Assembly: GCF_000221185.1 (NCBI RefSeq)
Contig: NC_015865.1
Location: forward strand, 1,798,001-1,862,000
Reading direction: 5' to 3'
DNA: 64,000 nt
DNA from: Thermococcus sp. 4557
Lineage (GTDB): Archaea; Methanobacteriota_B; Thermococci; Thermococcales; Thermococcaceae
Position numbers and translations under genes: made by a program. Shown here piece after piece: positions 1-11,311 of this stretch (within the stretch, counting starts at the first letter, position 1; every line of letters starts with the position of its first letter). The notes under the pieces were generated by a model. That model was not told the DNA's origin. It saw only the letters and a list, made by a program, of their open reading frames with translations, and did no database searches.

Positions 1-462
1 TACCTTTTCAACGTCCCCCTTGAGGCGGACGTGGTTCAGCGCGTACTCGTTCACCGCGCTCTCCCAGAGCGAGGCCCCGACAGATGTGACGCACGTGGTT
101 CCTGCCCATGCCGGATCGTCGTCGGCGTAAAGGAGTATAGGCCTCTTGGTTTCCCTGACCAGTGCCGTAACGAGGTTGCTCTCCGTCCAGTGCCAGAGGC
201 CGGCTATTATTCCCGAGACGGAGCTTCCGGCTATGATTTCTCCCGCCTTAAAGCTCTCATCCATCGAATCTACCCCGAAGTTCTTACCGGCTTTGAGGGC
301 CTCGTATTTTCCAAGCCTCTCGTTCACGTCGAGAACCTCAAAGCCGGCCTTCCTCAGCTCCACGATGAGGGCCGAGTGCTTCTCCATCAAAGCCCTCTCG
401 CGCTCGATCGAGAGGGCCGTTGGTCGAGGGTCGGTGAAAGTAATGAGGGCTATCACGGGCAT
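1..462 (-). CDS. sugar isomerase-like protein, L-fucose/L-arabinose isomerase family (3' part missing)
   Basis: Reading the complement from ATG at 462-460 gives an open frame of 154 codons to the window edge, so only the N-terminal part is present. It begins MPVIALITFTDPR and carries a Rossmann-like stretch with GEIIAGSSVSGIIAGLWHW and then RPILLYADDDPAW, the arrangement seen in the N-terminal domains of L-fucose and L-arabinose isomerase-like proteins. Family members interconvert aldoses and ketoses with a divalent metal; the metal ligands would lie in the missing C-terminal part, so the activity cannot be judged. It is divergent from the sugar kinase at 545, and its promoter carries one of three shared palindromes, placed upstream of its TATA box. 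It probably belongs to the same sugar-processing locus. Confidence 0.6.
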   Translation of the reverse strand, partial: MPVIALITFTDPRPTALSIERERALMEKHSALIVELRKAGFEVLDVNERLGKYEALKAGKNFGVDSMDESFKAGEIIAGSSVSGIIAGLWHWTESNLVTALVRETKRPILLYADDDPAWAGTTCVTSVGASLWESAVNEYALNHVRLKGDVEKV

Positions 463-489
463 CACCTTGAAGGGAATCGGCAAAAACTC

Positions 490-498
490 ATATATAAT
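490..498. promoter_or_regulatory. TATA element shared by the divergent isomerase and kinase genes
   Basis: The AT run ATATATAAT reads as a TATA box in both directions. It lies about 28 bases from the ATG of the leftward isomerase gene and about 47 bases from the ATG of the rightward kinase gene. No other TATA-like run is present in the 82-base gap, so one element may serve both, with the palindrome at 511-527 on the kinase side. Confidence 0.55.
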
Positions 499-510
499 GG
501 TTGTGTTATA

Positions 511-527
511 AACCACTTGAAATGGTT
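511..527. promoter_or_regulatory. 17-bp palindromic operator, copy 1
   Basis: AACCACTTGAAATGGTT is an inverted repeat with one mismatch. Two close copies occur at 2639-2655 and 4753-4769, all at promoters of this locus. It lies 12 bases upstream of the TATA box for the leftward isomerase gene and over the expected start site (about 519) of the rightward kinase. The centre-spaced TT-N-AA layout resembles the known TrmB operator class, so the TrmB-type protein at 8952 is the natural candidate binder; that link is inference. Confidence 0.75.
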
Positions 528-544
528 GTATTTTGGTGGTAGAT

Positions 545-1495
545 ATGATCGTTTCGATCGGTGAAGTACTCATAGATTTCATAGCCCTCCAGGAGGGGAA
601 GCTTAAGGACGTGAAGTCCTTCGAGAAGCATCCCGGCGGTGCTCCCGCAAACGTTGCGGTTGGTCTTTCAAGGCTCGGCGTTGAGAGTGCCCTCGTCAGC
701 AAGGTCGGCGACGACCCCTTTGGGGACTTCCTGCTCGAAAGGCTTCGTGATGAGGGTGTAAAGACCTACGTATCCCGGGATGCTGAAAAACATACTGGCG
801 TTGTCTTCGTTCAGCTCATCGGTGCCAAGCCGGAGTTCATTCTCTACGATGGCGTTGCTTACTTCAACCTGAAGCCTGAGGACGTGGAGACGGCCCTTCT
901 TGAGAACGCTGAGACAATTCACTTTGGCACCGTGCTCTTCGCCAGGGAGCCCTCTCGCTCGACGCTCTTTGGAATTTTAGAGGAACTTAAGGGAAAGGTT
1001 CCACTGAGCTACGATGTCAACATAAGGCCCGACCTCTGGCGCGGAAGGGAGGGAGAGATGCTACGGGATATTGAGAGGGCCCTCGGGCTGGCGGATATAG
1101 TTAAGCTCGGCGATGGGGAGCTGGCGTACCTCCGGGACAACGGAATAAACCCTGAAGACTTTGACTTCAAACTTCTCGCGGTGACCTTAGGTGAGAAGGG
1201 CAGCGAGCTGATGAGTGGAGACGCTAAGGTTCACGTCCCTGCTTATAGAGTCGAACCGGTTGACACCACCGGAGCAGGGGATGCCTTCACAGCTGCCCTC
1301 TTAGCCGGCCTTCACTACTCGAACCTGCTCGGTGAGGGGACCATCGATGAGGAGCACCTCAGAAAACTCGGACGCTTCGCAAACCTCGTAGCGGCGCTCT
1401 CAACAACCCTCAGGGGGGCCTGGAGCGTTCCAAAAATGGAGGAAATAGCGATAATGAGGGAGTTCAGGGAGCTCTACCAGCGCTCTAGGAGGTAG
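545..1495 (+). CDS. PfkB-family carbohydrate kinase (fructokinase-like)
   Basis: A 316-residue ribokinase-fold kinase. The N-terminal PfkB signature PGGAPANVAVG lies at about residues 30-40 and the C-terminal signature DTTGAGDAF at about 240-248, with the expected catalytic base Asp at about 246; both are intact. Family members phosphorylate sugars such as fructose or 2-keto-3-deoxygluconate, or myo-inositol. The YDVNIRPDLW stretch in the middle is common in fructokinase and KDG-kinase-like members, but the substrate cannot be fixed from sequence. The ATG at 545 is preferred over an in-frame TTG at 533 because GGTGG lies just before it. It converges on the glycosyltransferase gene, with 22 bases of 3' overlap. 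Confidence 0.85.
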   Translation: MIVSIGEVLIDFIALQEGKLKDVKSFEKHPGGAPANVAVGLSRLGVESALVSKVGDDPFGDFLLERLRDEGVKTYVSRDAEKHTGVVFVQLIGAKPEFILYDGVAYFNLKPEDVETALLENAETIHFGTVLFAREPSRSTLFGILEELKGKVPLSYDVNIRPDLWRGREGEMLRDIERALGLADIVKLGDGELAYLRDNGINPEDFDFKLLAVTLGEKGSELMSGDAKVHVPAYRVEPVDTTGAGDAFTAALLAGLHYSNLLGEGTIDEEHLRKLGRFANLVAALSTTLRGAWSVPKMEEIAIMREFRELYQRSRR

Positions 1496-2616
1496 TCCTT
1501 CTCCTCAAGGAATACCTTCGCCCTCTCCTCTATCAGTTTTTCGGCCTCAAGGGTGCTCATGTCCATCGTTCTCTTGACAAAATCAGCAGTCTTTGCGAAG
1601 TACAGCGGCACGAGGGGTTCCGCCTCGGTTAGAATTCCGTTTTTGTACGCCACCGCCCCGTCGTAGAGGACGTGGCTCCAGAGTCTGTCGTCGAACTCGA
1701 AGGTCTTGAGTGAATCCACCACTCCCTTGAGCGTCTCTTCGTCCAGTGCCCTCCTCAGCACCGGCTCGTGCTGGGCAAAGAGCTCCTTTGCCCTTATCTC
1801 CAGGAGCTCTAAGGTCACCTTTACGGACTCGGGTTCACCTTTCTCAAGCTCCCCGAAGACCGGAACGGGCTCTATCGTTCTCACGTCCTTCCAGACGTTC
1901 TCGTACTTCTCCATCAGCATGAACAGCGTTCCGACGACCTGGTTGAACATGGGGCCGAGCGATGCCGCCGGATCCTTGGGGTCGTGTATCTTCATTCCAA
2001 GGGCCGTCTGGGTGATTTTGAAGCCCCTCGCTATGGCCGTCGTCGTCAGGAATATGTCCACGCCGAAGCGAGCAACGTGCGTCTTCCAGACCTCCTCATC
2101 TTCGAGGTATACTTCCATGAGCTTTCTGCTCACTCCAAAGTCTCCACCTATCGGCTGCCTGACGTTCTTCCCGTAGAGCGAGGCCGTCATTGGGTAGGCT
2201 ATGTTGTTGGTTATGGTTCCGTCCCACTTGTGCCTTATGTAGAGCGGTGCCACGAAGTCGTAGCCCTCCGCGATGGGCTTGGCGAAGCGGTATATCCACT
2301 CGGGGGTTATGCTCCTTAAATCGCTGTCAACGAAGACGAGTGTATTTGCATCTCTTTCGAGGGCGAACTCCATGAGCTCCTTCATGGCGCTTCCCTTCCC
2401 CGGGATGGGCCATCTGTAAACGAAGCTGTGAACCTCGACACCATCCGGAACCTCTGTTCTCAGCACAGCATCCCTCGTCCCATCGGTGCTTCCTCCGTCA
2501 GCGTTGACGACGATTCCCCCTCCGAAGTACTTCTTCAGCCCCTCGGCGGCCTGCTTAACGACAAAAGAGATTGTTTCCGCGTTGTTGTAACTGGGAATTC
2601 CAACGATAACCCTCAT
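1474..2616 (-). CDS. GT-A family glycosyltransferase, glucosylglycerate/mannosylglycerate synthase-like
   Basis: 380 residues with a GT-A nucleotide-sugar domain: GIPSYNNAET at 6-15, NADGGSTDGT at 38-47, GKGSAMKE at 73-80 and a metal-binding DSD at 97-99. The order of motifs (GIPSYN, then DGGSTDGT, then PGKGSAM) matches synthases of glycosylglycerate compatible solutes and related retaining transferases. The helical C-terminal third is typical of that group too. Placement next to a sugar kinase, an ABC importer and a glycerate kinase fits a role in making or breaking glycosylglycerate, but the acceptor is inferred. The start codon follows a strong GGGGGTG site. The palindrome at 2639-2655 lies over its expected transcription start. 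Confidence 0.7.
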   Translation of the reverse strand: MRVIVGIPSYNNAETISFVVKQAAEGLKKYFGGGIVVNADGGSTDGTRDAVLRTEVPDGVEVHSFVYRWPIPGKGSAMKELMEFALERDANTLVFVDSDLRSITPEWIYRFAKPIAEGYDFVAPLYIRHKWDGTITNNIAYPMTASLYGKNVRQPIGGDFGVSRKLMEVYLEDEEVWKTHVARFGVDIFLTTTAIARGFKITQTALGMKIHDPKDPAASLGPMFNQVVGTLFMLMEKYENVWKDVRTIEPVPVFGELEKGEPESVKVTLELLEIRAKELFAQHEPVLRRALDEETLKGVVDSLKTFEFDDRLWSHVLYDGAVAYKNGILTEAEPLVPLYFAKTADFVKRTMDMSTLEAEKLIEERAKVFLEEKDYLLERW

Positions 2617-2638
2617 CCTTTCACCCCCATAAATTTAC

Positions 2639-2655
2639 AACCATTTAAAGTGGTT
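2639..2655. promoter_or_regulatory. 17-bp palindromic operator, copy 2
   Basis: AACCATTTAAAGTGGTT, an inverted repeat matching the copies at 511 and 4753. It sits 15 bases upstream of the TATA box of the rightward oxidoreductase gene and covers the expected start site of the leftward glycosyltransferase gene. This is the same reciprocal geometry as copy 1. Confidence 0.75.
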
Positions 2656-2669
2656 TATTTTGAAAAAGG

Positions 2670-2677
2670 TTATATAC
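2670..2677. promoter_or_regulatory. TATA element shared by divergent glycosyltransferase and oxidoreductase genes
   Basis: TTATATAC contains a symmetric TATATA core usable on both strands. Rightward it predicts a start about 25 bases on, close to the ATG at 2708 (short leader). Leftward it predicts a start near 2648, inside the palindrome. No second TATA-like run is seen in this gap. Confidence 0.5.
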
Positions 2678-2707
2678 TTTTTGCTCCCACAATCTTCGGG
2701 GATTCCT

Positions 2708-3715
2708 ATGGAGCTGAAGGTAGGTGTAATAGGCTGCGGAAACATATTCAACCTCGCCCACAAAAACGCCCTCAAGGTTATGGAGGGCACGAGGGTCGTC
2801 GCATGCATGGACATTGACGGAGAACGGGCCCGCGAGGGCGCGAGGGAGTTTCGGGCGAAGGCGTTCACGAGTCTCGACGAGTTTTTAGATACAGACGTGG
2901 ACATTGTGGAGATACTGACTCCGACGTACACCCACGCAGAACTGGCAGTTGCGGCTCTCAAGGCGGGAAAGCACGTGATAGTGGAGAAGCCGATAGCCCT
3001 CACCGTTGAAGAGGGCGAAAGGATGATAAAAACCGCCGAAAAGAGAGACCTGCACCTCTTCGTTGGCCACGTGAGGCGGTTTGACAAGAGATGGATGCAG
3101 ATGAAGGAGGTCATAAAGAAGCGCAACATCCTCCCCATGCACATCAGAAAGGCCGAAGTCCAGAACCTCCCCTTCCCCCGGGATTACTGGTACTGGGACG
3201 AGAACAGGAGCGGCGGTGTCGCCGTTGACCTCGGAGTCCACGTCACGGACTTCCTGCGCTGGTTCTTCGAGAGCGAACCGGTGAGCGTCTACGCCGTTGG
3301 GAAGGCCATAAAGGAGGAGGCGAGGGCAAACGGCACCTTTGACCACTTCCTAATGATGATCTCCTTTGAGGGTGGGAAGACGGGCATAGCCGAGGTCAGC
3401 TGGGCGTACCCGTACCCCTCGCGCTACGGTGTCTTCTACCACCACGTTGACATCATAGGAAAAAACGGCAGGATACGCTACACCCCGCTGGATACCCCTG
3501 TGGTCGGCGTCGCCAAGGCCAACTTCGAGATGCCCCGCTTCTCACCGCTCCTCTCGACCTTCCCGGATGCCTTCGAGAGGGAGCTGAGGCACTTCTTCAA
3601 CTGCATCAAGGGGAAGGAAGAGCCTGTAGTCACTGCGGAGGATGCATTGATAGCACTGAAGATCGCTGAGAAGGCCAAAGAGAGCGCCCGCAAGGGGGAG
3701 GTGGTTGAGATATGA
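2708..3715 (+). CDS. Gfo/Idh/MocA-family oxidoreductase
   Basis: 335 residues from ATG 2708; upstream in-frame codons are not preceded by a good promoter. The NAD(P)-binding loop GVIGCGN is at about 6-12 and the family motif EKPIAL at 93-98, with the lysine that helps catalysis. The C-terminal alpha/beta substrate domain includes GGVAVDLGVHVTDF. Family members oxidise or reduce sugars, inositols or their derivatives. It is the first gene of a pair: its TGA overlaps the ATG of the next oxidoreductase. The palindrome upstream of its TATA box suggests activation by the local regulator. The substrate is unknown; sugar or inositol dehydrogenation is most likely given the importer downstream. Confidence 0.85.
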   Translation: MELKVGVIGCGNIFNLAHKNALKVMEGTRVVACMDIDGERAREGAREFRAKAFTSLDEFLDTDVDIVEILTPTYTHAELAVAALKAGKHVIVEKPIALTVEEGERMIKTAEKRDLHLFVGHVRRFDKRWMQMKEVIKKRNILPMHIRKAEVQNLPFPRDYWYWDENRSGGVAVDLGVHVTDFLRWFFESEPVSVYAVGKAIKEEARANGTFDHFLMMISFEGGKTGIAEVSWAYPYPSRYGVFYHHVDIIGKNGRIRYTPLDTPVVGVAKANFEMPRFSPLLSTFPDAFERELRHFFNCIKGKEEPVVTAEDALIALKIAEKAKESARKGEVVEI

Positions 3716-4725
3716 GGAAGCTCAACTTCGGAATAATAAGCTACGCCCACCCCCACGCCCTTCGCTTTGCCTCAACCATCGCGGGGGGCAAGCAGACGAA
3801 GCTCGTGGCCATATCCGGCGACGGCTCCAACTCTGACGTAGCGAGGGGCGAGGCCAAGAAGTACGGGGCGAGGTTCTACAGAAACTACAAGGCACTCCTG
3901 AGGGATGAGAACGTCGAGGCGGTTTACATCGCAATCGAGACATACAGACACAAGGAAATAGCCATCAGAGCCGCCGAGGAGGGGAAGCACATACTCCTTG
4001 AGAAACCCATAGCCCTGAACCTCAGGGATGCGGACGAGGTTATAAGGGCCGCTAAAAAGGCCGGCGTAAAGCTCATGCTCCCGTTCAACCCACGCTTCAC
4101 AGAACCCCTGAAAAAAGCCAAAGACATGCTTGATAAAGGGGAAATAGGCCCACTGGAATACGTTCAGGCCATCTCGGAGAACGTTAAGCCCCCGATATTC
4201 CTCCAGGGTCTTGATATGGGCTGGTTCCTGGACGCGAGTAAGTCCGGCGGCGGGGGCTTCATGGACACGGCACCCCACGGTGTTGACTCCCTCCTCTGGC
4301 TCACGGGGGACCTTCCCAAGAAGGTCTACGCGGACATAGGCGCCAAGATATACGGTTTCCCTGTGGATGATATAGGCACCGCCGTCCTTGAGTTCAGAAA
4401 GGGCGTTCTTGCTGTTCTCACTGCCGGCTGGGGCAATCCGAGGGGCTACTCCTACGGCATTGAGATAAAGTACTACCTCGTCGGCAGGGAGGGCTTCCTC
4501 GACGTGAGAACTGCCTACCCGGACTTTACGGTCTACCAGGACAGGGCGGAGAAGATATACTGGGACAGGCCGGACGTCAGGGGGATTGTGAGCTCCTTCG
4601 CCAGGGCCGTCTTGAAGGACGAGGAGGTTCCAATAACCGGGGAAGATGCTAAGAAGAACCTGGCGATAATCCTAGCGGCCTACGAGTCGTCCAGAAAGGG
4701 AAAAACCGTGAAGCCCAGGGTTTAA
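3712..4725 (+). CDS. second Gfo/Idh/MocA-family oxidoreductase
   Basis: 337 residues, translationally coupled to the preceding oxidoreductase through an ATGA overlap. The EKPIAL motif is at 97-102 and the substrate-domain stretch GGGGFMDTAPHGVD is present. The N-terminal dinucleotide loop is unusual: GIISYAHPHA stands where the family has GxGxxG. That loop variant is known in a subset of the family, but it may change cofactor use. Two paralogues side by side suggest a two-step oxidation-reduction of one sugar or inositol, as in inositol and keto-sugar pathways. The importer operon follows after about 120 bases with its own promoter. Confidence 0.82.
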   Translation: MRKLNFGIISYAHPHALRFASTIAGGKQTKLVAISGDGSNSDVARGEAKKYGARFYRNYKALLRDENVEAVYIAIETYRHKEIAIRAAEEGKHILLEKPIALNLRDADEVIRAAKKAGVKLMLPFNPRFTEPLKKAKDMLDKGEIGPLEYVQAISENVKPPIFLQGLDMGWFLDASKSGGGGFMDTAPHGVDSLLWLTGDLPKKVYADIGAKIYGFPVDDIGTAVLEFRKGVLAVLTAGWGNPRGYSYGIEIKYYLVGREGFLDVRTAYPDFTVYQDRAEKIYWDRPDVRGIVSSFARAVLKDEEVPITGEDAKKNLAIILAAYESSRKGKTVKPRV

Positions 4726-4752: not shown

Positions 4753-4769
4753 AACCACTTTCAGTGGTT
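4753..4769. promoter_or_regulatory. 17-bp palindromic operator, copy 3
   Basis: AACCACTTTCAGTGGTT, an inverted repeat with one mismatch. It lies 13 bases upstream of the TATA run at 4783-4790 that drives the importer operon. The position upstream of TATA matches what is expected for activation in Thermococcales TrmB-like systems. Confidence 0.75.
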
Positions 4770-4782
4770 CTAAACACAAATC

Positions 4783-4790
4783 TTATATAT
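4783..4790 (+). promoter_or_regulatory. TATA box of the sugar importer operon
   Basis: TTATATAT lies about 55 bases before the ATG of the binding-protein gene at 4845, predicting a leader of roughly 30 bases that contains GGGTGATG just before the start codon. Confidence 0.6.
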
Positions 4791-4844: not shown

Positions 4845-6134
4845 ATGATTAGGAGGTTGTTTGGTGTTCTGTTGGCGGCGGTTGTGTTGTTCGCCGTAGT
4901 GTCCAGTGGCTGTATCTCCCCCGGAGGGGAGGAGAAGGTAACCGTGACGTTTCTGTCAACCCAGCTGAACCCGCCCGAGGAGAGGGCCTTCGTCCAGGAG
5001 GACCTTCTGAAGGGGTTTACATCGGACACAAACATCGAGGTTAATTTCGTCCCGATTTCCTACACGGACATGGTTACGAGGCTCGAGGGTGAGATGCAGA
5101 CTGGAAAGGTCACCATCGACGTCATAGGTGACCTCCACGGCGGTATGGACTATATGTCCTCGAAGGGCTGGCTCGAGGACCTCAGCACGATGCCCAAGCT
5201 CGAGGGAAGGACCTTCATCAGCACCTTTGAGCAGTACTCCTACATCCGCGGCCAGAAGGCCTACGTGCCATGGATGAGCGCTACCTACGTTATGGTCGTT
5301 AACAAGGAGGCCTTCCAGTACCTGCCGGAAGGGCTTACCGAAGAGGACGTCATGAAGGGCACCGACAAGTGGACCTACGATGCCCTCCTCCAGTGGGCCA
5401 AGAACCTCAAGGAGGCCAAGGGACAGCCAGAGCTCGGCTTCCCGGCCGGACCGAAGGGACTCTTCGTCAGGTTCCTCCATGGCTACATCTATCCGAGCTA
5501 CACCGGCTACCAGGCGAAGGAGTTCGACAGTCCCGAGGCCGTTGAGATGTGGGACTACCTCAAGGAACTCTGGCCCTACGTGCACCCGTCGAGCACCACC
5601 TGGGACGCCATGGCTGACCCGCTCTTGAAGGGTGAGGTTCTCATAGCCTGGGATCACACAGCGAGGATTAAGAACGCCATCGAGACCAAGCCGGACCAGT
5701 TCGTCGTTGTGCCGGTTCCGAGGGGACCGAAGGGCAGGGGATTCATAGTCGTCCTCGCCGGCCTCGCCATACCGAAGGGAGCACCGCACAAGGACGAGGC
5801 CTGGAAGCTCATAGACTACCTCACCAAGCCGGACACCCAGGTCAAGGTTCTGGAGAAGGTCGGTTTCTTCCCGACAGTTGAGGAAGCCAGCGGAAAGCTG
5901 CCCGAGGGACCGCTCAAGATACTCGCGGAGGGGGTCCAGGCCCAGGCGAGCACCGAAGATGCCCTCGTCGTCATGATACCGAACCTTGGAGACAAGGGAG
6001 GACAGTTCAAGGAGTACTACAAGCAGGCCTTCGAGAGGATAGTTCTCAACAACGAAGACCCGGCGACGGTAACCAAGGAGATCAAGCCCGACCTCATAAA
6101 GCTCTTCGAGGACGTTGGAGTGCCGGTGCCGTGA
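4845..6134 (+). CDS. sugar ABC transporter, extracellular substrate-binding lipoprotein (family 1)
   Basis: 429 residues with a signal sequence and lipobox ending at SSGC (Cys23), so it is a membrane-anchored binding protein. The body has the family 1 solute-binding layout, with TIDVIGDLHG, AYVPWMSATY and VLAGLAIPKGAPHKDEAW as in MalE-type proteins. It should capture a sugar or sugar-containing solute outside the cell and pass it to the permeases encoded next (13 and 0 bases away). In context the ligand may be a compatible solute or a disaccharide; sequence alone does not say. Expression probably depends on the palindrome at 4753-4769. ATG 4845 is preceded by GGGTGATG. Confidence 0.85.
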   Translation: MIRRLFGVLLAAVVLFAVVSSGCISPGGEEKVTVTFLSTQLNPPEERAFVQEDLLKGFTSDTNIEVNFVPISYTDMVTRLEGEMQTGKVTIDVIGDLHGGMDYMSSKGWLEDLSTMPKLEGRTFISTFEQYSYIRGQKAYVPWMSATYVMVVNKEAFQYLPEGLTEEDVMKGTDKWTYDALLQWAKNLKEAKGQPELGFPAGPKGLFVRFLHGYIYPSYTGYQAKEFDSPEAVEMWDYLKELWPYVHPSSTTWDAMADPLLKGEVLIAWDHTARIKNAIETKPDQFVVVPVPRGPKGRGFIVVLAGLAIPKGAPHKDEAWKLIDYLTKPDTQVKVLEKVGFFPTVEEASGKLPEGPLKILAEGVQAQASTEDALVVMIPNLGDKGGQFKEYYKQAFERIVLNNEDPATVTKEIKPDLIKLFEDVGVPVP

Positions 6135-6147
6135 AGGAGGAGTTCCC

Positions 6148-6999
6148 ATGAAACGGCGCTCTCTCGTTCCCTATCTTTTAATTTTACCGGCTTTCGCGTA
6201 TCTGCTGTTTTTCGTTGGCTATCCCCTTGTTCAGGCCCTCTATCTGGCCTTCACCCAGAACGGTGCCCTCTCCCTTGAGGTATGGCGGAGAACCTTTAGC
6301 GATTACTACTTTTGGAGCGCGTTTAAATACACAATCCTTCTGGCGGGTATCATAGTCCCGACCCAGGTTGCCCTTGCCGTTGTTCTGGCCCTTCTAATGA
6401 ACCGCGTTTTCAAGGGCAAGGACGCCGCCCTCTATGCCCTCATAATTCCCCTCACCATAAGCGACGTGGCGGCTGGTTTGATATGGTACTCCATGCTCTC
6501 CCCCTACGGTTTCATAAACAAGCTTCTCATGAACCTGGGGCTGATAAGCCAGCCGATATACGTATTCGGCTACGAATACCGCATGAGGGAGTTCTTCGCG
6601 ATAGTTATAGCAGAGCTTTGGCGCTCCACGGCGATAGTCTTTGTGATAATCCTGGCCGGCCTTCAGATGATAAGCAAGGAGTACATCGAGGCTGCCGAGG
6701 TCTTCGGGGCGAGCTACTGGACGAGGCTCAGGCGCATCGTTCTGCCGCTCCTGAAGCCCAGCATCCAGAGCGCCCTCATAATAAGAACGCTCTTCGCGAT
6801 GCAGATCTTCGGTATCGTCTGGATACTGGCCGGCAGGGACATCCCGGTTCTTGCCGGTGAGGGCTACTACCAGCTCACGGAGATAAAGGACGCTGGTGTT
6901 GCATCGGTCTACGCCCTCGTGATAGCGGGTCTCTCCATACTGCTCGGCGCGCTGTACATCAAGTTCCTCCGCGCTGAGTACCTGGAGGTGGGAGAATGA
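6148..6999 (+). CDS. sugar ABC transporter permease 1 (MalF-like)
   Basis: 283 residues from ATG 6148, chosen because AAGGAGGAG lies just before it; an upstream in-frame GTG would overlap the binding-protein gene. It has about six membrane segments starting with LVPYLLILPAFAYLLFFVGY. The cytoplasmic EAA loop is near 187-206 (YIEAAEVFGASYWTRLRRI), the contact site for the ATPase. It belongs to the CUT1 group that imports di- and oligosaccharides. The stop overlaps the start of permease 2, so the two are co-translated as a heterodimeric channel. Confidence 0.88.
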   Translation: MKRRSLVPYLLILPAFAYLLFFVGYPLVQALYLAFTQNGALSLEVWRRTFSDYYFWSAFKYTILLAGIIVPTQVALAVVLALLMNRVFKGKDAALYALIIPLTISDVAAGLIWYSMLSPYGFINKLLMNLGLISQPIYVFGYEYRMREFFAIVIAELWRSTAIVFVIILAGLQMISKEYIEAAEVFGASYWTRLRRIVLPLLKPSIQSALIIRTLFAMQIFGIVWILAGRDIPVLAGEGYYQLTEIKDAGVASVYALVIAGLSILLGALYIKFLRAEYLEVGE

Positions 7000-7829
7000 A
7001 CGACGAGACCAAGTACGCCCTCAAAAAGGTGGGGTTCTACACCGCCGTTTTCACGGCCGCGGTCTGGATAGTGATTCCGATCATCATCTCCTTCCTCTAC
7101 GCCTTCACCAGCAAGGCCGACTACTACGACCCGACCAAGATAATCCCGACGAGCTTCACGAGCGAGTACGTCCACACGATACTCTTCACCCTCGGCGCGT
7201 GGGACGGAATAAAGAACAGCGTCATAGTGGCAGTGCTCACCATCATCATAAGCTTCATCCTCGGCGTCCCGGCCGGGTACTCTATAGCCAAGTACATGTT
7301 CCCGGGCAAGGACCACATAAAGCTCTCCATAGTTGCCCTCAGGATGTTCCCGATTCCGGTCATGGCTATACCGCTCCTGGTTCTCTACATAGACCTCCAT
7401 CTGGCGGATACTCTCCTTGGAGTGGCGCTGGCCCACACGGCAATGGCGCTCCCCTTCGTCGTCCTTATAACGTCGAGCATCTTCGCCGGGGTATCCAAGG
7501 AGTATGAGGAGGCCGCGATGGTGTTTGGCCTTACCAGGTTCGGCTCCTTCAGGAAGATAACCCTTCCCCTGGCCCTTCCGGGGCTGGCCGCTGCCGCTAT
7601 GTTCACCTTCGTCATGAGCTGGAACGAGGTCTTCGTTGCCTCGATTCTCACCCTGAACAACAGAACCCTGCCGGCGCAGATACTCTCGATAATGGCCGGC
7701 TCCAGCGGCGGTGCCGCGCCGGACTACTACAAGTTCGCCGCGGCCTTCATAATGACCCTCCCGGCGATGCTGTTCATATTCTTCGCAAGGAAATATCTGG
7801 TCACAATGTGGGGTATAACGCTCAAGTGA
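6996..7829 (+). CDS. sugar ABC transporter permease 2 (MalG-like)
   Basis: 277 residues with about six membrane segments. The EAA loop (YEEAAMVFGLTRFGSFRKI, about 169-187) is clear, and the C-terminal end resembles MalG. It pairs with permease 1 (4-base ATGA overlap) to form the inner-membrane channel. The ATPase gene begins 9 bases after the stop. Confidence 0.88.
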   Translation: MNDETKYALKKVGFYTAVFTAAVWIVIPIIISFLYAFTSKADYYDPTKIIPTSFTSEYVHTILFTLGAWDGIKNSVIVAVLTIIISFILGVPAGYSIAKYMFPGKDHIKLSIVALRMFPIPVMAIPLLVLYIDLHLADTLLGVALAHTAMALPFVVLITSSIFAGVSKEYEEAAMVFGLTRFGSFRKITLPLALPGLAAAAMFTFVMSWNEVFVASILTLNNRTLPAQILSIMAGSSGGAAPDYYKFAAAFIMTLPAMLFIFFARKYLVTMWGITLK

Positions 7830-7838
7830 GGTGTTACC

Positions 7839-8942
7839 ATGGTAGAGGTTAAGCTTGATAGGATAACCAAAAGGTTTGGGGACTTTGAGGCGGTTAAAGA
7901 GCTCACGCTGGAGATAAAGGACGGTGAGTTCCTCGTGCTCCTCGGCCCGAGCGGCTGCGGAAAGACGACGACGCTGAGGATGATTTCTGGCCTTGAGACG
8001 CCCAGCGAAGGCAAGATATACTTCGGCGATAGAGACGTTACATACCTGCCCCCCAAGGACAGGAACATCTCGATGGTATTTCAGAGCTACGCCGTCTGGC
8101 CGCACATGAAGGTCTTCGACAACATAGCCTTCCCGCTCAGAGTGAAGAAGTATCCCGAGGACGAGATAAAGAGGCGCGTCAAGTGGGCGGCCGAACTCCT
8201 CCAGATAGAGGGTCTCCTCGACCGCTATCCAGGACAGCTCAGCGGCGGCCAGAGGCAGCGTGTGGCCGTCGCCAGGGCGATAGTGGTTGAGCCAGACGTT
8301 CTGCTCATGGACGAGCCGCTCAGCAACCTGGACGCCAAACTCAGGGTGGCGATGCGCGCCGAGATCAAGAAGCTCCAGACGAAGCTGAACGTCACGACCA
8401 TCTACGTCACCCACGATCAAGTCGAGGCAATGACGATGGGCGACAGGATAGCGGTTATGAACAAGGGCCGGCTCCTCCAGGTGGGTCCCCCGACGGAGGT
8501 TTACCTCAAGCCCAACTCCCTCTTCGTGGCGACCTTCATAGGCGCTCCCGAGATGAACACCATTGACGCGACGGTTGTGGAGAACGATGGCCTCTTCCTT
8601 GAGGGGGACGGCTTCAAGATACGCCTTCCGGACGACTTCAGGGAAGTCCTCGAGGGGTACATAGGAAAGGAGGTTCTCCTTGGCGTAAGGCCCGAGCACA
8701 TGACCGTGAAGGGCGTTTCGACCCTTGAGCACGTGACGAGGACTGCTGAGATAGAGGGAATCGTTGATTTCATAGAGGCCCTCGGTACGGACACGATAGT
8801 CCACGCCAAGGTTGGGGGAAACATCATCAAGATAAAGCTTCCCGGCCACATACCCCTGCCGGTTGGAGAAAAGATTAAAATAGAGATTGACCTTGACAAC
8901 ATCCATATCTTCGACAGAGACACGGAGAAAGCGATAATCTGA
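7839..8942 (+). CDS. sugar ABC transporter ATP-binding protein (MalK-like)
   Basis: 367 residues. Walker A GPSGCGKT is at 36-43, Q-loop FQSYAVWPH at 81-89, signature LSGGQ at 134-138 and Walker B LLMDEP at 155-160. An OB/TOBE-type C-terminal domain from about 240 onward (ending DLDNIHIFD) marks it as a MalK/MsmX-like CUT1 ATPase. All nucleotide-binding motifs are intact. It powers import by the two permeases just upstream. The TrmB-type regulator gene begins 9 bases after its stop, so regulator and transporter share one transcript. Confidence 0.92.
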   Translation: MVEVKLDRITKRFGDFEAVKELTLEIKDGEFLVLLGPSGCGKTTTLRMISGLETPSEGKIYFGDRDVTYLPPKDRNISMVFQSYAVWPHMKVFDNIAFPLRVKKYPEDEIKRRVKWAAELLQIEGLLDRYPGQLSGGQRQRVAVARAIVVEPDVLLMDEPLSNLDAKLRVAMRAEIKKLQTKLNVTTIYVTHDQVEAMTMGDRIAVMNKGRLLQVGPPTEVYLKPNSLFVATFIGAPEMNTIDATVVENDGLFLEGDGFKIRLPDDFREVLEGYIGKEVLLGVRPEHMTVKGVSTLEHVTRTAEIEGIVDFIEALGTDTIVHAKVGGNIIKIKLPGHIPLPVGEKIKIEIDLDNIHIFDRDTEKAII

Positions 8943-8951
8943 GGTCTGCCT

Positions 8952-9968
8952 ATGGAAGAAAAGGAGATAAAAGCCCGGCTGAAAGAGTTCGGTCTCAATG
9001 AATATGAGGTCAGGGCGTATCTTACACTCATAAAGAACGGAGCGCTGACGGCAGGGGAGCTCGCGACGCTCTCGAAGGTGCCCCAGCCCAGGATATACGA
9101 CGTGATAAGGACGCTCATGGCCAAGGGATTCGTCACGACGAGCCAGGGCAGGCCCAAACAGGTAATCCCCCTCAGCCCGGACAGCGTCATGGACGCTTTG
9201 AAGAGGCGCTACAATGAGCGGATTGACGAGATCAAGAGCGCTTTGGAGAAGCTCTACACTCCGAGAGGGGAGATTGGAAGCGTAACTGTCGTCAAGAGCA
9301 GGATAACGTTCGAGGAGCACGTGAAGAAGGCCATCGAGAAGGCCAGGTTTCATCTGAGCATTGCCGTTCCCAGAGAATTCCTTAGAAAAATCGGGGGACA
9401 ACTCGCCGCCAAAAAGGAAGATGGCGTAAGGATAAACCTCTTCGTTTACGGCAATGGTGAGATTCCAGCGATCGCCAGCGAAATAAGGGCTAGGGAAGTT
9501 CCTGATCCGATACTCATCATCCAGGACAGAGAAGAAGGAGTTTACCTGCCCTATGAGGCGCTGACGTCGAGCAGTTCTCTACTCGGCTACGGACTCATCA
9601 TAAGGGACAACAACCTCCTCTTCATGCTCAACCGCTACTTCTACCACGCCCTCTGGCCGACCGGGAGAGTAGTTTATCGCGAGGAGCGCAGGCTCAAGCT
9701 TCCGAGGGAGTACATCCACATAAGGGAGCTGGTGGAGGACATAAAGACCTTCAATCTGGAGGGGGCAAAGGTTGAGGTTATAGGGAAGTTCGTTCGCTCC
9801 AGGAAACCGGTACACCTCGTGGGCAGGGTGGTGGAGTTTTTTGAGGATGACAACAAGGTCATTTCTAACATTACCGTCAAGACCGAGGACGGAGCCAGGT
9901 ACGTCGTCGGCGGCTGGAACGCGTCACTTGAGGACATCGAGGCCGAGCGGATAGTCCTTTTCGAGTGA
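8952..9968 (+). CDS. TrmB-family transcriptional regulator
   Basis: 338 residues, the full TrmB length. An N-terminal winged helix (about 10-75, with ARELATLS-like LATLSKVPQPRIYDVIRTL) is followed by a short coiled coil and the TrmB sugar-binding region, including a phospholipase D-like part (HLSIAVPREF) and a C-terminal beta domain (about 250-338). TrmB proteins sense sugars and act as repressor or activator depending on operator position. It is encoded in the importer operon, directly before the glycerate kinase, so it is the best candidate to bind the three palindromes of this locus. That assignment is inference from proximity and operator shape. The sugar it senses is unknown. Confidence 0.88.
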   Translation: MEEKEIKARLKEFGLNEYEVRAYLTLIKNGALTAGELATLSKVPQPRIYDVIRTLMAKGFVTTSQGRPKQVIPLSPDSVMDALKRRYNERIDEIKSALEKLYTPRGEIGSVTVVKSRITFEEHVKKAIEKARFHLSIAVPREFLRKIGGQLAAKKEDGVRINLFVYGNGEIPAIASEIRAREVPDPILIIQDREEGVYLPYEALTSSSSLLGYGLIIRDNNLLFMLNRYFYHALWPTGRVVYREERRLKLPREYIHIRELVEDIKTFNLEGAKVEVIGKFVRSRKPVHLVGRVVEFFEDDNKVISNITVKTEDGARYVVGGWNASLEDIEAERIVLFE

Positions 9969-9988
9969 GTTCTCTCAGGGGTGAGAAA

Positions 9989-11311
9989 ATGGACGCCAGA
10001 ACTACCGCACTGGAGATTATGCGATATGCGATTAAAAGCGCCGACCCTTACCTCGCGGTGAAAAGGAACCTTAGGATTGAGGGGAACAAACTGGTCATTT
10101 CTGGTGAGAGGTTCCCGGTTGGTGGGAAAATCTATCTCCTGGCCTTCGGCAAGGCAGCGTGCTCCATGGCGAGAGCAGTCGTTGATACCCTCGGGGAGCG
10201 TATTGAGGAAGGAGTTATCATCACGAAGTACGGCTACGCAGAGGACTGCCCGAGAACGGAAAGGCTGAAGGTCATCGAGGCCGGACACCCCGTTCCAGAC
10301 GAGAACTCCCTCTTGGGCGGAAAGCTCGGACTCGAACTGGCCGAGAAGGTTGGGGAGAATGACATCCTCCTCGTCCTTATCTCCGGTGGTGGGAGTGCGC
10401 TCTTCCTTCTCCCTGAGGAGGGAATAACACTGGAGGACAAGATCGGGACGAACGAGCTCCTCCTGAAGAGCGGGGCAAAGATATACGAGATAAACACTGT
10501 GAGAAAGCACATCTCGGCAGTCAAGGGCGGCAAGCTGGCGAAGCGCGTGAGGGGTAGGGTGATAAGCCTGATCCTCTCGGACGTCGTCGGCGACCCGCTT
10601 GAGGCGATAGCATCGGGCCCGACCGTGAAGGACCCGACCACCTTCCAAGACGCCTACCGGATTTTAAAGCTCTACGGGGTCTGGGAGAAGCTTCCGAAGA
10701 GCGTTAAGAGACACATCGAGCTGGGACTGGGGGGGAAGGCGGAGGAAACCCTCAAGGAAGACCTCCCGAACGTCCACAACTTCATAGTTGGAAGCAACAC
10801 CCTCTCCTGCGAATCTGCCCTGGCGAAGGCGAAGGAGCTCGGCTACAACGCCCTGCTTCTCACAACGACCCTAGAAGGCGAGGCCAGGGAGATAGCCCTG
10901 GCGATAGGCTCGATAGTCCAGGAGATAGCAAAATACGACCGCCCGGTTCCAAAGCCGGCCGTCCTAATAGCCGGCGGCGAGTGGACTGTGACCATTGAGG
11001 GAAAGGCCGGCCTCGGCGGGCCGAATCAGGAGTTTGCCCTGAGTATCGCCAGAAAGATATATGGATTAAACGCCGTGGTTCTGGCGGTTGATACAGATGG
11101 AACGGACGGGCCAACCGATGCTGCCGGCGGGATAGTCGACGGGAAAACGCTTGGACTTCTCAGGGAAGCCGGGGTGGACGTCGAGGAAGTCCTCAGAAGG
11201 CACGACGCCTATAACGCGCTGGAAAAGGCCGGCGCACTCCTCAGGACTGGACCAACTGGAACCAACGTGAACTCGCTGGTGGTGGCGGTCATCCCGAAGG
11301 GACGCCAGTAG
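9989..11311 (+). CDS. glycerate 2-kinase (MOFRL / GK-II family)
   Basis: 440 residues from ATG 9989, which follows AGGGGTGAG; an upstream GTG at 9965 overlaps the regulator gene and is unlikely. Conserved features are LLAFGKAACSMA near 44-55, EAGHPVPDENS near 92-102, LLVLISGGGSALF near 119-131 and the C-terminal DTDGTDGPTDAAGG of the MOFRL domain. The enzyme phosphorylates D-glycerate to 2-phosphoglycerate, feeding lower glycolysis. Being last in an importer-regulator operon, it implies that the imported compound yields glycerate, for example from a glycosylglycerate or from non-phosphorylating sugar breakdown. Confidence 0.92.
   Translation: MDARTTALEIMRYAIKSADPYLAVKRNLRIEGNKLVISGERFPVGGKIYLLAFGKAACSMARAVVDTLGERIEEGVIITKYGYAEDCPRTERLKVIEAGHPVPDENSLLGGKLGLELAEKVGENDILLVLISGGGSALFLLPEEGITLEDKIGTNELLLKSGAKIYEINTVRKHISAVKGGKLAKRVRGRVISLILSDVVGDPLEAIASGPTVKDPTTFQDAYRILKLYGVWEKLPKSVKRHIELGLGGKAEETLKEDLPNVHNFIVGSNTLSCESALAKAKELGYNALLLTTTLEGEAREIALAIGSIVQEIAKYDRPVPKPAVLIAGGEWTVTIEGKAGLGGPNQEFALSIARKIYGLNAVVLAVDTDGTDGPTDAAGGIVDGKTLGLLREAGVDVEEVLRRHDAYNALEKAGALLRTGPTGTNVNSLVVAVIPKGRQ

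Follow-up and report, generated by a model that had tools for sequence, protein, structure and literature searches.

In a 64,000-nucleotide stretch of the Thermococcus sp. 4557 genome (the window, to which positions refer unless a genome coordinate is given), a 17-bp dyad lies to one side of a single TATA element in each of two divergent gene pairs, preceding the predicted promoter in one direction and coinciding with the start predicted in the other. The best reading of this arrangement, and probably the correct one, is reciprocal control by the cluster-encoded regulator TrmBL5 at shared-TATA divergent promoters. The original prediction held that a single binding event could turn one arm of each pair on and the other off: the observation behind it is real and stronger than first stated, the geometry and shared TATA elements are well supported by comparison of related genomes, and reciprocal control itself is partly supported, its sign being taken by analogy with the paralogous regulator TrmBL1. 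Binding, ligand, start sites, and pathway are what we infer from the sequence.

Genes, dyads, and predicted shared core promoters

The cluster begins with ISO (1-462, minus strand), the N-terminal part of a 494-aa L-fucose-isomerase-like protein (Fucose_iso_C) that continues to the left of the window and is followed downstream by genes for an MGH1/GDE-like glycosidase and then a GH130 phosphorylase (matches to MGH1-like_GH/GDE and Glyco_hydro_130). Divergent from ISO is KIN (545-1495, plus strand), a PfkB-family sugar kinase. The minus-strand GT (1474-2616) encodes a family-2 glycosyltransferase (MGS_GT, 46.6 bits), a distant relative of mannosylglycerate synthase and glucosyl-3-phosphoglycerate synthase (GpgS, 55.5 bits against a cutoff of 262), and diverges from two plus-strand Gfo/Idh/MocA oxidoreductase genes, OX1 (2708-3715) and OX2 (3712-4725), the latter overlapping the end of OX1. 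The plus strand continues with a sugar ABC transporter (4845-8942), made up of a solute-binding protein (SBP; 4845-6134), permeases (6151-6999 and 6996-7829), and an ATPase (7839-8942), and then with a TrmB-family regulator (8952-9968) and GLYK (9965-11311), a glycerate 2-kinase family protein that more likely starts near 9989. Two functional clues were discarded: an identity of KIN as myo-inositol kinase (its closest solved relative is PH1459), and GT homologs in two bacterial MAGs (L079 and L080), which have no other cluster gene beside them.

The dyad (consensus AACCAYTTnnARTGGTT; half-site form AACCAY-N5-RTGGTT) occurs in three copies, all within this cluster, each of which we propose as a TrmBL5 operator. 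Dyad A (AACCACTTGAAATGGTT, 511-527, center 519) occupies the ISO/KIN intergenic region, dyad B (AACCATTTAAAGTGGTT, 2639-2655, center 2647) the GT/OX1 intergenic region, and dyad C (AACCACTTTCAGTGGTT, 4753-4769) a position 5' of the ABC-transporter promoter, where there is no divergent partner. The original prediction had recognized the same operator in both divergent pairs, which is confirmed, and had missed the third copy. Across the whole genome (2,011,320 bases), the pattern AACCAYTTNNARTGGTT, the looser pattern AACHAYNNNNNRTDGTT, and the looser half-site AACHAY-N5-RTDGTT each match at these three places only, and the reversed pattern, used as a control, gave 0 and 1 matches per strand. Matches to AACCAY-N5-RTGGTT are mostly local to the cluster in nine other TrmB-positive genomes as well. 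We found no earlier report of the motif in the openly searchable literature.

Core promoters were scored with a BRE/TATA matrix derived ab initio by unsupervised training on 244 kb of the genome, which supplied 149 upstream regions (consensus GCGAAAGGTTTATAAAC; median distance of 37 bp from TATA center to start codon in the training genome), with shuffled upstream sequences as the score background (95th percentile, 7.7; 99th percentile, 9.3). Between ISO and KIN, the matrix places one core promoter at 481-506, with a KIN-side BRE at 481-489, TATATAAT at 491-498, and an ISO-side BRE at 499-506, scoring 10.7 bits toward ISO (minus strand) and 9.0 bits toward KIN (plus strand), with TATA centers at 493/494. 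The GT/OX1 promoter (2661-2684) has an OX1-side BRE at 2661-2668, the TATA element TTATATAC at about 2669-2677, and a GT-side BRE at about 2677-2684 that reads CAAAAAG on the minus strand; it scores 14.2 bits toward OX1 (plus) and 15.3 bits toward GT (minus), with TATA centers at 2673/2672, values that carry a mild circularity in that the OX1 and GT regions were part of the training set. Both pairs thus have the form that defines a bidirectional BRE-TATA-BRE promoter, a lone TATA flanked by two BREs, and because each scores almost as well in one direction as in the other, the core promoter by itself would favor neither. The transporter-operon BRE/TATA (4774-4790, plus strand, ACACAAATCTTATATAT) is one-directional, with a reverse score of only 7.8.

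A single TATA common to each divergent pair was part of the original prediction, which named separate TATA boxes as a finding that would contradict it. We looked for such boxes and found none: the best alternatives scored 1.8 bits for KIN and 4.9 bits for GT and were rejected on score and on their weakness in orthologs. ISO has one weaker alternative (8.4 bits, center 508), and in every ortholog the shared element ranks first for ISO.

The predicted spacing also held. The palindromes had been placed 12 to 15 bases upstream of the TATA elements of ISO and OX1, and the gaps from dyad edge to TATA core are 12 and 14 bases, respectively, with no overlap of a BRE. Dyad and TATA centers lie 25 to 26 bp apart in both divergent pairs, a distance that puts the dyad upstream for ISO, OX1, and the transporter operon and on the predicted starts of KIN and GT. 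With start sites predicted about 25 bp from the TATA center, transcription would begin at about 469 for ISO, 518 for KIN, 2698 for OX1, and 2647 for GT; the predicted KIN and GT starts therefore fall at the dyad centers (519 and 2647), as had been proposed, and those of ISO and OX1 about 50 bp past them. For one gene of each pair, the operator would thus precede the promoter; for its partner, it would coincide with the transcription start.

Identity of the regulator and the sign expected from TrmBL1

The regulator contains both a TrmB domain (PF01978, 75.6 bits; cutoff, 25.6) and a Regulator_TrmB domain (PF11495, 173.7 bits; cutoff, 22.2) and thus has the domain makeup of the full-length, sugar-sensing TrmB type. 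Sequence matches identify it as the ortholog of Thermococcus barophilus TrmBL5 (TERMP_01835), the same gene in the same transporter cluster: both published RT-qPCR primers for TERMP_01835 match inside the ortholog at locus L102, and the L102 contig reproduces a published sequence exactly at its published coordinate, 1,624,822-1,624,836 (PMC10667668), matches on the strength of which we take the genome concerned (G086) to be T. barophilus MP. The L102 ortholog is 62% identical to the window regulator, and gene order is the same. A study of TrmBL4 proposed a TrmB-like site, TACTN6AGATA, near the T. barophilus transporter promoter, found TERMP_01835 expression unaffected by TrmBL4 deletion, and listed TrmBL5 only as a possible regulator of its own cluster (PMC10667668); the L102 dyad, at 1,624,854-1,624,870, lies 18 bp from that site. 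In the literature open to reading, we found no report of a binding site, sign, or ligand for TrmBL5, and the dyads would supply a candidate operator and target set for a protein so far named there without a known site. Among 33 aligned TrmBL5 orthologs, 67% of the approximate recognition helix is invariant, versus 25% of the effector domain.

The yardstick for sign is the system formed by TrmBL1 (Tgr) and the Thermococcales Glycolytic Motif, or TGM (PMC4706686, PMC4158304), which resembles the present one in its TrmB-family DNA-binding and sugar-binding domains and in a 17-bp dyad found at the same two positions relative to TATA. The two systems are nevertheless distinct. The window regulator scores 137.9 bits against the TrmBL1 equivalog model NF047390, whose cutoff is 650, and is 30% identical to a separate TrmBL1 paralog encoded in the same genome (G000:C1:1179306); the cluster dyads read AACCAY-N5-RTGGTT rather than TATCAC-N5-GTGATA; and the TrmBL1 regulon is global, whereas the one proposed here is local, with three sites. 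In this genome and its relatives, TrmBL1 sites cluster 22 to 28 bp downstream and 23 to 28 bp upstream of the TATA center. In Pyrococcus furiosus, TrmBL1 repressed each of nine tested templates whose site lay downstream; of three whose site lay upstream, it activated two and had no effect on the other, and dual action was proposed for the divergent PF1538/PF1539 promoter region (PMC4706686). The rule invoked by the original prediction, that upstream sites of TrmB-like regulators activate and downstream sites repress, is therefore documented for TrmBL1, whose placement supports, by analogy, the sign predicted for TrmBL5.

TrmBL1 also has a shared-TATA promoter of its own in this genome. At L183 (G000:C1:1289650-1290500), a shared TATA (GGCATATAAACC) with a TGM at locus position 381 has a TGM-like site on each side and is flanked by divergent genes for a GH57-amylase-like protein and a secreted glycan-active protein, a layout that recurs in relatives (L156, L159, L168, L169, L178, and L176). 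The two sites would cover both starts, which makes the one-sided arrangement of the TrmBL5 dyads a real contrast.

Conservation across relatives

Our comparison covered the cluster in about 45 family genomes. All 37 genomes that encode a TrmB ortholog have the GT/OX1 dyad, and none of the nine that lack the ortholog has it; of these nine, eight come from a single genus and the other (G025) from the window's own. Because the genomes are related, the counts are not independent, and Fisher's P value of 9e-10 is nominal only, with at least two independent events behind it. The transporter dyad is found in 35/35 OX2-SBP regions, always at the upstream position, and 11 of the 12 intergenic regions between ISO and KIN retain theirs. 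In four of these (L083, L084, L085, and L087), both half-sites have been altered in step to yield the perfect dyad AACAAC-N5-GTTGTT, as expected if symmetry were under selection; the two remaining operators in each of these genomes stay AACCAY.

Promoter architecture is equally persistent. Spacing between dyad and TATA centers is 24 to 28 bp at all OX1, SBP, and ISO promoters and on the GT and KIN sides (about 80 promoters), one TATA carries a BRE on both sides in all TrmB-positive genomes, and the one-sided layout is common to five genera. The ISO/KIN core promoter is conserved in 12/12 regions (medians of 12.2 bits for KIN and 11.6 bits for ISO), and the GT side of the OX1 TATA bears a conserved reverse BRE, reading CTTTTG or CTTTCG in the OX1 direction. 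Median reverse BRE/TATA scores are 13.8 on the GT side, 7.8 at the nondivergent SBP promoter, and 5.0 across 81 genome promoters.

At L097, which has lost the ISO/KIN dyad, TATA and KIN are 36 bp apart instead of 51 bp, close to the genome median of 37 bp; at L129, which has neither TrmB nor dyad, the GT/OX1 promoter is still BRE-TATA-BRE, with an intergenic gap of only 68 bp. In several genomes (L082, L088, L089, L090, and L094), the kinase sits behind another gene and has no dyad, so its opposite control is not conserved.

Three clusters have been rearranged. L109 (G076) has acquired transposon-like DNA in two places, one separating OX1 from the dyad/TATA and one within OX2, and its dyad and GT are intact; at L116 (G080), deletion has reduced the cluster to GT, OX1, ATPase, and regulator fragments, and the dyad is gone; and at L108 (G078), the whole ABC transporter is absent and the regulator directly follows OX2, with the GT/OX1 dyad still present.

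Probable reciprocal control, its alternatives, and related systems

The reading we favor takes the dyad as the operator of TrmBL5, offset by about 25 bp from a balanced BRE-TATA-BRE promoter. Once bound there, TrmBL5 would contact or recruit TFB/TBP on its own side of the TATA and promote transcription away from the operator, activating the ISO operon, OX1-OX2, and the transporter-TrmBL5 operon, whose promoter is one-directional. In that position TrmBL5 would also cover the start of the gene on the other side (KIN or GT), and a polymerase facing one way would exclude a polymerase facing the other, so KIN and GT would be repressed. Uptake and breakdown genes would then rise together as the glycosyltransferase (and here the kinase) falls, and the regulator, the last gene of the transporter cluster, would reinforce itself. 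The purpose may be to prevent synthesis of a glycoside by GT during the import and degradation of one; the hydrolase, GH130, and glycerate-kinase neighbors are consistent with a hexosylglycerate or a mannoside.

The best evidence for an activating position is the third, nondivergent dyad, as judged from its placement. As a counterpoint, the OX1 and GT core promoters are near consensus, which is atypical where TFB recruitment is needed. The kinase half of the proposal is the weaker one, both because the kinase lies elsewhere without a dyad in several genomes and because opposing an isomerase to a kinase makes less metabolic sense than opposing oxidoreductases and a transporter to a glycosyltransferase; an isomerase and a sugar kinase might be expected to act together, which counts against their opposite control. 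A bolder version, which we advance tentatively as a possibility, would make TrmBL5 an orientation switch of the preinitiation complex: where two near-equal BREs surround one TATA, the operator-bound protein would set the docking side of TFB and so choose between the two opposing genes, twice in one cluster and across five genera.

Near-consensus OX1/GT promoters, strong unaided, would also fit plain co-repression, in which bound TrmBL5 is broad enough to block both the near-side TFB/BRE and the far-side start, keeping both arms and the transporter off until it is released by a sugar ligand. In P. furiosus, the TM operon is repressed by TrmB bound over BRE/TATA, with sugars as inducers (PMC4158304, PMC4706686), and joint derepression would be metabolically sensible for ISO, KIN, and transporter genes that all look catabolic. 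We nevertheless consider it unlikely: the dyad stands 12 to 14 bp outside the TATA core and clear of the BRE, unlike the TrmB/malE site; the co-repressed TrmBL1 promoter at L183 has two sites, one per start, whereas the TrmBL5 pairs have only one; and at the one-directional transporter promoter the site is confined to the upstream position in 35 of 35 genomes.

Less probable still is activation alone, with TrmBL5 activating the genes for which it is upstream and KIN and GT losing purely by polymerase competition at the shared TATA. At bidirectional promoters of Escherichia coli, activators repress the divergent RNA mainly through such competition, and activator binding without activation has no effect on that RNA (PMC12825309); the SBP site, moreover, uses the upstream position without any divergent partner. 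Against it, the dyad centers lie within about 1 base of the predicted KIN and GT starts, where TrmBL1 represses single promoters (PMC4706686), and the outcome would still be reciprocal, differing from the favored reading in mechanism alone. That the palindrome belongs to another regulator, as the neighboring TACTN6AGATA site might suggest, or forms an RNA hairpin, attenuator, or terminator unrelated to the linked TrmB protein is very improbable, given the perfect co-occurrence of dyad and TrmB ortholog (with G025 lacking both), the indifference of TERMP_01835 to TrmBL4 deletion (PMC10667668), and the position of the dyads upstream of three start sites, where they would have no RNA role.

Divergent reciprocal control by TrmBL1, SurR, and CopR and the BRE-TATA-BRE promoter are already known in Thermococcales; new here are the putative operator and local regulon of TrmBL5 and its repeated one-sided placement on predicted shared-TATA promoters in five genera. 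The BRE-TATA-BRE promoters of P. furiosus likewise have one TATA with a BRE on each side, and starts 49 bp apart in the tested case compare with about 49 to 51 bp predicted here; unlike those, where the second transcript was taken as antisense noise, both directions here enter conserved protein genes, and an operator is present on one side only (PMC6640164). CopR at copR/copA of P. furiosus, shown in vitro, also raises one divergent gene and lowers the other, but it is an Lrp-type octamer that sits between separate promoters, whose starts are 96 bp apart, rather than beside a shared TATA (PMC7830388); P. furiosus SurR, as cited in PMC4706686, has the same pair of effects. In E. coli, one-way activation cuts the opposite RNA at a pseudosymmetrical promoter, although these are bacterial sigma-70 promoters and repression is by polymerase competition (PMC12825309). 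With one TATA, two BREs, and one operator, the TrmBL5 promoters would offer compact natural templates for how an archaeal regulator sets promoter direction, with natural controls in the one-directional transporter promoter, the operator-less promoters of L097 and L129, and the two-site TrmBL1 promoter of L183.

A further TrmBL1-type site lies elsewhere in the genome (L151; G000:C1:787285-787301), where a TGM with one mismatch is positioned upstream (+26) of the phosphoglucose isomerase TATA. We did not count it as an example of activation, since its placement conflicts with the listing of the P. furiosus ortholog, PF0196, with a downstream site; a real L151 site would imply control of different sign in the two species.
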